From the NCBI GenBank assembly GCA_905182095.1, contig CAJJAQ010000020.1, positions 1 through 64,000 of the forward strand: a DNA stretch of 64,000 nucleotides. Direction: 5' to 3'. How positions within the stretch are numbered: the stretch's first letter is position 1; each line of letters opens with the position of its first letter. Below, one piece after another: positions 38,849-42,490 of the stretch. The notes under the pieces were generated by a model that saw only the letters and a program-made list of their open reading frames with translations, did no database searches and had not been told where the DNA came from. The stretch is from an uncultured Pseudomonadales bacterium (GTDB taxonomy: Bacteria; Pseudomonadota; Gammaproteobacteria; Pseudomonadales; Azotimanducaceae). A program made the translations under genes and the position numbers.

Positions 38849-40276
38849 TTACTGAATAACCTTAATAAGGTCTCCGGCTCTTGGCTCACCTCTGGGGTGG
38901 TGACCATTAATCACTCGCAAAGTTTCCTCCCCATCTACTTTGATAGACATTTTGGCAGCAAGCTTTGCATAGGTGTCGCCGGGACGGGCTTCTACTAAAG
39001 CAATACTCTGCTTATTAATCAGACGCAGATCATCTGCGGACATAGCACGAAACGACATCACCATATCTTTAAAGAGTTTTTCAAAGGCAACAGGATCGCC
39101 CTTGTCCTTAAGTTCTCCATTAAATACGTAAACCCCATTTTCCTTATACAACACCGCAATCTTGCGCAGCTTCGGCGTCTCACCCGGCACTTTTATAGAG
39201 GCCAAATAACCAGCATAGGGACCCGCCTGAATTTCTTCGCCATTCTCTAAATCATCACGGCGCAGAGTTTTGGTCAAATATTCTTCAGGGGTTTGAGGTT
39301 CAGCAGGCAGCGCGGTTCGCCTAGCGGACATGTTGCCCTCGCCATTTGGCTCGTTGCCAAAGACTTCCGAGGACGTAGCCTGAACATTCCAGCCTTCTGG
39401 AAAAGCAATTTTAAGCCTCAGTGCGCCGTGGTAATAAACACCTTCGTGAACAACACCTGTGGCAGATTCATCACCAAAGCGCAGCCCCGCCAACATTGCA
39501 TAGTATTCACGTTCAGGTTCCGGCAAATCTACCAGCTGCAAATGCTGAGACTGCTCAACCAATTCATTGAGGCGTTTATTGTGGGCCGGGTGACTACCCA
39601 GCAAACCATGGTAAATGGTGGGTGCGTTTTTTACCGAGCGCTGAAAATCGTCGTGATCGCGCAACTGTTGAATACTTGCCAATAACGCCCGAGGGTCATA
39701 TCCAGCGCGCAAAATAAGGTCGGTGCCTATCTCATCGGCCTCTAACTCGTGCTCACGACGATAACCCGCCAACGCCGTTGCGCTAATGGTATTGGCCAAA
39801 CCATAAGTTGCGCTAGAACCTGTAGCAAAGGTACCCAAGAAACCTAGGATTTTGCCCAAGCGACCTCTGTTTACAGTGCGCTTAGTATGAGCACCAACCA
39901 CGTGACCAATTTCATGACCAAGCACCGCAGCCAACTCATCTTCATTATTAAAGAAAGCCAAAATACCGCGAGTGACAAAAATGTATCCGTCTGCTGTAGC
40001 CCACGCATTAACAATAGGCTGATCCACCACCACAAAGGTATAAGTCCGTCCTGCATGGGGCGAAACCGAAAGTAAACGCTCACCAATCTCGGTGACATAT
40101 GCCTGCCACTCATCATCTGGATAAATAACCCCCTTCTCGACAAACTCGTTATATATCTCAGCGCCGACGCCAGCATGGACGGGCGCGGGGAAGGCAGCAA
40201 AAGACAATAACGCCAGAGTTACAAGGCAACTTAAAACGCGATTTGCATAACTAGAGGCAGAAAGATGTTTGATCAT
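38849..40276 (-). CDS. M48-family metalloprotease with a C-terminal LysM-like segment
   Basis: LAAVLGHEIGHVVGAHTKR; EHELEADEIGTDLILRAGYDPRA; C-term ARPGDTYAKLAAKMSIKVDGEETLRVINGHHPRGEPRAGDLIKVIQ. Confidence 0.92.
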   Translation of the reverse strand: MIKHLSASSYANRVLSCLVTLALLSFAAFPAPVHAGVGAEIYNEFVEKGVIYPDDEWQAYVTEIGERLLSVSPHAGRTYTFVVVDQPIVNAWATADGYIFVTRGILAFFNNEDELAAVLGHEIGHVVGAHTKRTVNRGRLGKILGFLGTFATGSSATYGLANTISATALAGYRREHELEADEIGTDLILRAGYDPRALLASIQQLRDHDDFQRSVKNAPTIYHGLLGSHPAHNKRLNELVEQSQHLQLVDLPEPEREYYAMLAGLRFGDESATGVVHEGVYYHGALRLKIAFPEGWNVQATSSEVFGNEPNGEGNMSARRTALPAEPQTPEEYLTKTLRRDDLENGEEIQAGPYAGYLASIKVPGETPKLRKIAVLYKENGVYVFNGELKDKGDPVAFEKLFKDMVMSFRAMSADDLRLINKQSIALVEARPGDTYAKLAAKMSIKVDGEETLRVINGHHPRGEPRAGDLIKVIQ

Positions 40277-40652
40277 TTAACAGTGCTCAAAATTAGACAG
40301 CAAAGTAGGCAAAACTCAAAAACGCACAGACCGTAAGGATATACAGACTAAATCAGGAAAGGGAGGCGCAAAGGCATCAATTACCATTTTCGGCGACAGG
40401 AGGTTTTAAACAGTGGAGCAAAACGTATAGAAGCCATAGGTATTGCAGTAGCGCGCACCAAAAATGAACAAAAAAAGTTGGCGCAACATGGCATCATTGA
40501 TGATCGACAAAATCTAACTAATGCAGGAGGAATCCGCATTGGTAGCAGCATTCAGGTGAAACTCTTTGCAGTAAGGGTTCAAAAGAGCTGTGCACGCTGA
40601 GGAAGACTAAAAAATATTAGCGGTGAATTTATTGTTCCAAACCAGCCACCTA

Positions 40653-40694
40653 ATTCTAGCCATTTAGATCTAGCCATTTAAATCTAGCCATCTA
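40653..40694. repeat. 14-bp tandem repeat, 3 copies, just upstream of the VOC gene
   Basis: ATTCTAGCCATTTA / GATCTAGCCATTTA / AATCTAGCCATCTA. Confidence 0.8.
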
Positions 40695-40705
40695 ACTCTA
40701 GATTG

Positions 40706-41140
40706 ATGATGCAATATTTGGAAAATCACAAATCAAAGACAGTGCCGATACTTAGATACCAAGATGCAAAAAAATCTATTGTATGGCTGTGTAAAACATT
40801 TGGTTTTGAGGTATTTTTAGAGGTGGCTGGCAAAAATGAAGCGGTAGAACATGCTCGTTTAGTTCTAGGTGACAGCATGGTAATGATTGCTTCTTTTGGT
40901 CGTGATGGCGATTTTGAAAATAGCTTTGTATCACCAGTAGAAGTTGGCGGTGTTACGCAGTGCACTTCGATCTATGTCGAGGATCCAGAGAACATCTATA
41001 AAATGGTCATTGAGGCTGGTGCCGAAATAATTGATAAGCTCGCTGAGTTTCAGTTTGGTGGTAGGACATTCAGCTGCAAAGACATTGAATCTAACGTATG
41101 GATCTTTACTAGCCATAATCCATGGGGGAAATTTTGGTAA
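40706..41140 (+). CDS. VOC-family (glyoxalase/bleomycin-resistance-like) protein
   Basis: VPILRYQDAKKSIVWLCKTFGFEVFLEV...ARLVLGDSMVMI...CTSIYVEDPENIYKMVIEAGAEIIDKLAEFQFGGRTFSCKDIESNVWIF. Confidence 0.85.
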   Translation: MMQYLENHKSKTVPILRYQDAKKSIVWLCKTFGFEVFLEVAGKNEAVEHARLVLGDSMVMIASFGRDGDFENSFVSPVEVGGVTQCTSIYVEDPENIYKMVIEAGAEIIDKLAEFQFGGRTFSCKDIESNVWIFTSHNPWGKFW

Positions 41141-41144
41141 GCGT

Positions 41145-41264
41145 ACCTAACAAACTGCTCGATCTGACTTCCACTGCGTTGCTCGTCTTGTACGCCTCGC
41201 CACCCTCGCCACCCTCGCACAAAAACAATCAAACGCGTTCCGCCAGCATAGCTGGGGGTTAGGC
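41145..41264 (+). mobile_element. attC-like recombination site 1 (R'' ACCTAAC ... R' GTTAGGC)
   Basis: RYYYAAC 5 bp after the VOC stop; GTTRRRY 5 bp before the GNAT GTG; inner L-box-like pairing (GCT..CTG / CAG..AGC); 120 bp. Confidence 0.6.
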
Positions 41265-41268
41265 ATCC

Positions 41269-41784
41269 GTGGTGCGAATTGAGATACGAGATGAACGTCC
41301 CGCTGACTACTCCAAGGTTGATGATCTTATTCGGGCCGCATTTAATGGCGATGCCCAGGCGCAAATAGTAACTGCGCTACGCGAATCTGATGAGCGTTAT
41401 ATTTCGCTAGTAGCTGAACAAGATGGCTTGCTCGTTGGACATATATTCTTCTCGCCGATTGAATTCGAAGAAGGCTTTAACCACCAAAGTTGCCAATTGT
41501 CACCGATTTCTGTTTCACCTACCGAGCAAGGAAAGGGAATAGGTGGCGAGTTGATAAGCGCTGGCCTAGAGCGATGCAAAATTAATGGTTGGAACTCAGT
41601 TTTTCTGTTAGGTAATCCTGCCTATTATTCTCGTTTCGGTTTCATGTTCGCTAGTGAAATCGGACTACACTGCAATGGTTCGCTCGATCCATATTTACAA
41701 TACGTCGAACTAGAATCAGGAGTACTGAATGACTGTCACGGTCTTATATCATTTCATTCTGCATTTAATCCGCCAGATACCTAA
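41269..41784 (+). CDS. GNAT-family N-acetyltransferase, cassette-like
   Basis: VGHIFFSPIEF..., LSPISVSPTEQGKGIGGELISAGLERCKINGWNSVFLLGNPAYYSRFGF; GTG start. Confidence 0.9.
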   Translation: MVRIEIRDERPADYSKVDDLIRAAFNGDAQAQIVTALRESDERYISLVAEQDGLLVGHIFFSPIEFEEGFNHQSCQLSPISVSPTEQGKGIGGELISAGLERCKINGWNSVFLLGNPAYYSRFGFMFASEIGLHCNGSLDPYLQYVELESGVLNDCHGLISFHSAFNPPDT

Positions 41785-41930
41785 CACTCAGCTGAAGTCT
41801 CTTCGATTCATCGCTGGACGCGCTAACACAGCGTATGCCCCACTGATGGACTGCCTCGACTAAATGGCCTTTCGAGCTTTATTAAAATCGAACGGTTCTG
41901 CCATAGTCTATTCGCCACACAGCGTTAGAC
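41779..41930 (+). mobile_element. attC-like recombination site 2 (R'' ACCTAAC ... R' GTTAGAC)
   Basis: Core boxes match RYYYAAC/GTTRRRY; the GNAT stop TAA lies within R''. 152 bp and weaker inner pairing than site 1. Confidence 0.4.
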
Positions 41931-42038
41931 TGCAAATCGGAGAATTGCTACAGAATTTCTAAAGGTCGGAAAAAACAGAGTATTACTAGGTGCCCCACCA
42001 GAACGGTGAGGCGAACAGACTATCTGGCACAAATCAGA

Positions 42039-42057
42039 AGGCCCAGATAATGGGCCT
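42039..42057 (-). terminator. Stem-loop 3' of rpmE
   Basis: AGGCCCA-gataa-TGGGCCT. Confidence 0.6.
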
Positions 42058-42068
42058 AGAAAAGTGGT

Positions 42069-42287
42069 CTAGCTACCGCCGCTGCTTCTTTTAGCGAATC
42101 GCTGACGGTACTTCTCTACACGACCACCAGTGTCTAAGATCTTCTGCTTACCGGTGTAGAAAGGGTGGCAGCTTGAGCAAACATCCAAGTGGAGGTCTTC
42201 TTTAAGCGTAGTGCCAATTTGGAGTTCAGCGCCGCAACTACAAGTTGCCTTCACGATGTTGTACTCAGGATGTATTTCAGGCTTCAT
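42069..42287 (-). CDS. rpmE: 50S ribosomal protein L31 (zinc-type)
   Basis: [27 protein letters not shown]...[30 protein letters not shown]. Confidence 0.98.
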
Positions 42288-42490
42288 AGCGGCTAACCGT
42301 CATCAAAATTTTAAGGTCGCAGAGTTTAACAGAAGCCGACTCATTGGCAACCTCGCGTTGGGATAATATAAATACTAAGTAGCCGCGCCCCTCCCAAACT
42401 TTACCTTCTTTTCCTCACCCAATAACCCCCAATCTCGCAATCTTTCTTCCCCGGGCTTCGCACTTGGCTCAACTCTCCGTAGAATGCCCT

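Follow-up and report, generated by a model that had tools for sequence, protein, structure and literature searches.

Do two genes lying between an M48 peptidase gene and rpmE in an uncultured Pseudomonadales bacterium (Azotimanducaceae) represent integron cassettes that reside away from any integron? The window analysed is a stretch of 64,000 nucleotides from contig CAJJAQ010000020.1. The first-pass annotation of this window described a VOC and a GNAT gene, each ending in an attC-like site, and labelled them an integrase-less, CALIN-like cassette pair. The default of IntegronFinder 2.0 defines a CALIN by at least two attC sites (PMC9024848). CALIN-type loci have been proposed to be degraded integrons, and single-attC cases can be true and go unreported by default (PMC9024848). 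The locus is composed of the following features, given in window coordinates:

38849–40276, minus strand: M48 peptidase gene, a flank conserved in the genus (gene calls and synteny)
40420–41991, no strand: insert that separates the M48 peptidase gene from rpmE, with approximate edges (left 40404–40480, right 41924–41991)
40706–41140, plus strand: VOC-fold gene of the glyoxalase/bleomycin-resistance superfamily (Pfam PF00903; alignment with G005)
41145–41264, plus strand: site 1, a putative eroded attC (R/L log-odds 24.1; no recognition by covariance models R1 and R2)
41145–41151, plus strand: site 1 R'' box ACCTAAC, motif present in the sequence
41157–41168, plus strand: site 1 predicted L'' box GCTCGATCTGAC (R/L log-odds)
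41243–41252, plus strand: site 1 predicted L' box CCAGCATAGC (R/L log-odds)
41258–41264, plus strand: site 1 R' box GTTAGGC, 120 bp from R'' to R'
41272–41784, plus strand: GNAT acetyltransferase gene (Pfam PF13527/PF00583)
41779–41930, plus strand: site 2, an R''/R' pair 3' of the GNAT gene with L boxes that are not recognisable
41779–41785, plus strand: site 2 R'' box ACCTAAC, motif present in the sequence
41924–41930, plus strand: site 2 R' box GTTAGAC, 152 bp from R'' to R'
42069–42287, minus strand: rpmE (ribosomal protein L31), a flank conserved in the genus (gene calls and synteny)

Judged by synteny, the VOC–GNAT island reads as a true insertion. The gene order PBP1A–M48–rpmE–priA is kept across the genus. 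The M48–rpmE gap is 1.79 kb in the window versus ~325 bp in two related genomes, G017 and G016, whose M48 proteins are 90% and 86% identical to that of the window, and homology to these genomes ends at position 40403 or earlier and picks up again at 41992. Absence of both genes between M48 and rpmE in relatives had been proposed as a check, and it was found: the insert DNA is present in 2 of 40 genus genomes, the window genome and G005 (MAG contig CAJXUL010000073.1). The G005 record is also the sole match to the insert in a collection of 84,980 species genomes, and plasmid searches with the VOC and GNAT proteins returned no relative above 39% identity. Alignment to the empty sites of G017 and G016 is marginal (left p 0.002 against G017, right ~0.05) and does not resolve a G/TT crossover at the insertion edges. 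The left end of the insert features a tandem repeat at 40644–40701 with 3.6 copies of a 14-base unit, TAAATCTAGCCATT, and the extra units are absent from the G005 copy. An Rfam search of the region gave chance matches only, far under gathering scores.

The two gene families named by the first-pass annotation are confirmed by Pfam, the VOC protein matching Glyoxalase (PF00903) with 26.6 bits (cut-off 20.6) and the GNAT protein matching Acetyltransf_9 (PF13527) with 39.6 bits (cut-off 25) as well as PF00583. The R-box motifs, their coordinates and the compact spacings are likewise all present as described. The VOC stop codon occupies 41138–41140 with 4 bp between its end and the R'' box of site 1, and the GNAT stop codon, TAA at 41782–41784, falls within the R'' box of site 2. 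There is indeed a GTG 4 bp past the R' box of site 1, at 41269, but as the GNAT start codon 41272 is likelier, since the G005 ortholog has an ATG at that position. With this start, the GNAT gene has the anatomy of a cassette, being a single compact ORF in the attC orientation that starts 8 nt past R' and ends in R''. A GNAT protein from the same order, in G207, is 40% identical to that of the window; its gene ends in a textbook attC (GATTAAC...GTTAAAT) with the stop codon within the R'' box of this intact site, and its contig has another attC. None of the VOC relatives within the order has an adjacent attC.

The strongest attC signal is found at site 1. Reference attC sites were taken from same-genus integrons (the G008 array, G006 and G005) and from other gammaproteobacteria, and a separate log-odds score combines R boxes, spacers and L boxes. 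The R boxes of site 1, ACCTAAC and GTTAGGC, agree with the RYYYAAC/GTTRRRY consensus and are complementary at 6 of 7 positions, and its L'' and L' boxes have the canonical 5-nt spacing to the R boxes. The joint R/L score is 24.1, while the runner-up R''/R' pair in the window reaches 3.4, and when the window was dinucleotide-shuffled 40 times the score was never attained (maximum 18.0). One equal score was found in 437 kb of other DNA, and this match is taken to be a copy of site 1 itself because its boxes, length and score are identical. The L'' half scores 10.2, where real attC sites range from 2.4 to 19.5, and is unmatched by any other of the 132 R''-like words in the window. The L' half scores 2.5, which is at the low end of real sites, and the L-box score of 1.5 is the best in the window. 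The structure of the site is another matter, as the bottom-strand fold of site 1 does not surpass that of shuffles (z 0.21) and its arms form neither a canonical stem nor a stable R–L hairpin. The R/L box scores and the values of the L halves therefore point to a site whose sequence and spacing are those of an attC but whose stem is eroded.

Two covariance models were built from the arms of attC sites: R1 from 28 sites, none of them from the genus of the window, and R2 from same-genus sites. R1 recovered most of the held-out G008 array at 13–36 bits and the native sites of G005 at ~16 bits, and R2 scored held-out sites of other lineages at 12–41 bits. Neither model matched site 1 or site 2 over its full length, so the proposed covariance-model check came out negative with these two models. 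A scan of the window genome with R1 found no attC at E ≤ 0.5 among the 150 of 269 candidates that were scored. Loose ACCTAAC...GTTAG pairs are not enriched across this genome, with 11 found versus 11 for a reversed-pattern control, and the plain R-box pattern is uninformative alone because it is equally frequent as its reversed control. In the G008 integron (L057; G008:C24:400500-420400), a same-genus array of more than 20 cassettes, the attC sites fall into two length classes of ~115 and 134 nt, the longer of which features an extra CCCGCCGAAGGCGGG-type hairpin. R1 also missed real sites of ~134 nt, which makes it an unfair test of site 2; at 152 nt, this site is too long for a fair covariance-model search.

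By the other measures site 2 as a whole is not above chance. Its joint score is −12.4, and its L-box score of −26, a background-level value, is equalled or bettered by 42% of background pairs. The R boxes share a common core of just 5 bp. The left half is borderline (p 0.10; 0.03 in G005) and the right half is background (p 0.79). A relaxed search for alternative R''/R' partners found nothing better, and the single-strand fold is no better than that of shuffles (z −1.2). Site 2 would thus be no more than an attC that has been truncated or has badly decayed, and of the two sites the first alone has recognisable L boxes.

These results bear on the main rival to a cassette origin, according to which the segment is a small island that was acquired horizontally but not through an integron, brought in by illegitimate or homologous recombination or left by a decayed element, with R-box pairs that arose by chance. 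Both covariance models score neither site, loose R-box pairs are no commoner in the genome than their control, and site 2 is without L boxes, all as this explanation would have it. It leaves unexplained, however, the boxes and spacing of site 1, which are unmatched in the shuffles or in other DNA apart from the copy of site 1. It would also have to treat as coincidence the cassette-like spacing at both genes, the GNAT cassette of G207 and, in G005, one more degenerate site, the third; this explanation is considered unlikely. What speaks against cassettes is the null result of R1 and R2, the site 1 fold, sites of the GTTAGRC type versus GTTATRM beside the intI of G005, edges without a G/TT crossover and VOC relatives without attC. 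The segment is nevertheless probably a decayed remnant of integron cassettes that lies outside an integron and entered the M48–rpmE region through an integrase acting in trans.

The G005 copy of the island adds to this picture. Along the G005 locus (L044), the identity of window positions 40650–42400 is 89–96% over the insert and right edge, 73–92% leftward of the insert, and down to ~85% further right, a profile that suggests a recombination tract. The G005 island has an extra gene 5' of the VOC gene (L044 836–1513) without a Pfam match, whose product appears by eye to be membrane-protein-like. Between this gene and the VOC gene lies the third degenerate pair, from GCCTAGC (1508) to GCTAGGT (1655), which scores 9.7, and the stop codon of the extra gene falls within its R'' box. 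Site 1 in G005 reads ACCTAGC...GTTAGGC and has a joint R/L score of 22.3 and an L-box score of 7.2, so its L boxes are better than those of the window. The G005 VOC gene is broken by an internal deletion and a frameshift, and the 5' end of the window VOC gene is changed by a deletion relative to its G005 ortholog; the alignment suggests that deletion has removed from the window both the extra gene and the 5' end that the VOC gene first had. The identity of the window to G005 is 91% over the insert and 82% over PBP1A–M48 and drops gradually rightward. For the GNAT gene, comparison of the window with its G005 ortholog gave a dN of 0.036 and a dS of 0.133, values that, for this one sequence pair, are consistent with purifying selection.

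Integron integrases were found in the sister genomes. The locus itself is without a nearby integrase gene, and intI was also sought elsewhere in the genome, as had been proposed: no match to TIGR02249 above the cut-off is present in the assembly, and the partial matches are at the level expected for XerC/XerD. In G005 and G017, the neighbour of intI is an acylase gene, beyond which lies a hydrolase gene. The hydrolase counterpart of the window genome lies at C100:212-1105, 211 bp from a contig end, and the contig ends within the intergenic sequence adjoining this gene; the acylase gene was not found in the assembly. The lack of intI is uninformative because the assembly breaks beside the integron position of the sister species, and the term integrase-less therefore stands for the locus and cannot be judged for the genome. 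The intI of G005 is intact and accompanied by cassettes, and that of G017 is broken by two stop codons. Between the broken G017 gene and its cassette side are two transposase-like ORFs (G017:C192, L064 662–1746 and 2036–2941), which we take to be IS3-like. The attC sites next to intI in G005 are of the GTTATRM type versus the GTTAGRC type in the window. Apart from these, G005 has a cluster of four attC sites that all point the same way (L140, G005:C4, 1508–5057), two at 24.6 and 25.7 bits and two weaker; this group is a better CALIN candidate than the window locus.

An intact intI in a sister genome, G005, would be compatible with a functional CALIN, in which both attC sites are intact and an integrase, from a sister lineage or missing from the assembly, is able to mobilise the cassettes in trans. 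The intact R boxes of window site 1 and the end of contig C100 beside the counterpart of a gene located next to the G005 intI fit such a locus. It is very improbable, however, given that the covariance models found no match, the arms form no stable R–L hairpin and L boxes are missing at site 2.

Under the favoured reading of a decayed remnant, a short run of cassettes comprising at least the VOC and GNAT genes, and in G005 also the membrane-protein-like gene, would have entered the M48–rpmE intergenic region in an ancestor or in a donor lineage. Their insertion into a non-attI site, possibly of the attG type, was probably the work of an integron integrase that acted in trans. The VOC cassette would have site 1 as its attC, and site 2 would be the leftover of the attC of the GNAT cassette. 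Both sites would since have mutated, so that neither is expected to fold or recombine well, and recombination activity would have been lost. The cargo would now be inherited, or exchanged as part of the locus on the chromosome, and the GNAT gene, if not the VOC gene, still appears to be under purifying selection. Insertion of cassettes at attG sites has reportedly been described by Loot et al. (2024, Nat Microbiol; cited in PMC12444791). Such insertion would account for cassette entry into an ordinary intergenic region, although the crossover in the window is unmapped and the mechanism is inferred. The fuller scenario, in which cassettes were caught at an attG-type chromosomal site and then exchanged between species with the locus while the attC sites eroded and selection kept the GNAT gene, is a tentative one and somewhat doubtful as a whole.

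The locus resembles CALINs in having cassette-type genes and attC-like sites far from any intI (PMC9024848). It differs in that it has one credible, eroded attC and one R-box pair, and R1 and R2, built in this analysis, match neither site; for these reasons it would not be called under the two-site default (PMC9024848). With recognisable L boxes at one of its two sites, the formal CALIN label is not supported, while a cassette origin is supported by the insertion, site 1, the GNAT anatomy and the intI and attC arrays of relatives. In Xanthomonas, CALINs have been reported at non-canonical loci, including a two-cassette case without intI (PMC12444791). They share with the window cassettes at conserved chromosomal positions off the intI locus that are common to related species, but they were found with the standard attC model, whereas the window sites are decayed past the models built here (PMC12444791).

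The locus is a further case of a known kind of cassette relic and a fairly ordinary one in genomic terms. It illustrates how cassettes turn into fixed chromosomal genes, through capture off the integron, decay of attC and retention of the cargo. It also suggests that such relics can escape both attC covariance models and a CALIN rule that asks for two sites, so that the number of former cassettes counted in genomes is probably an underestimate.
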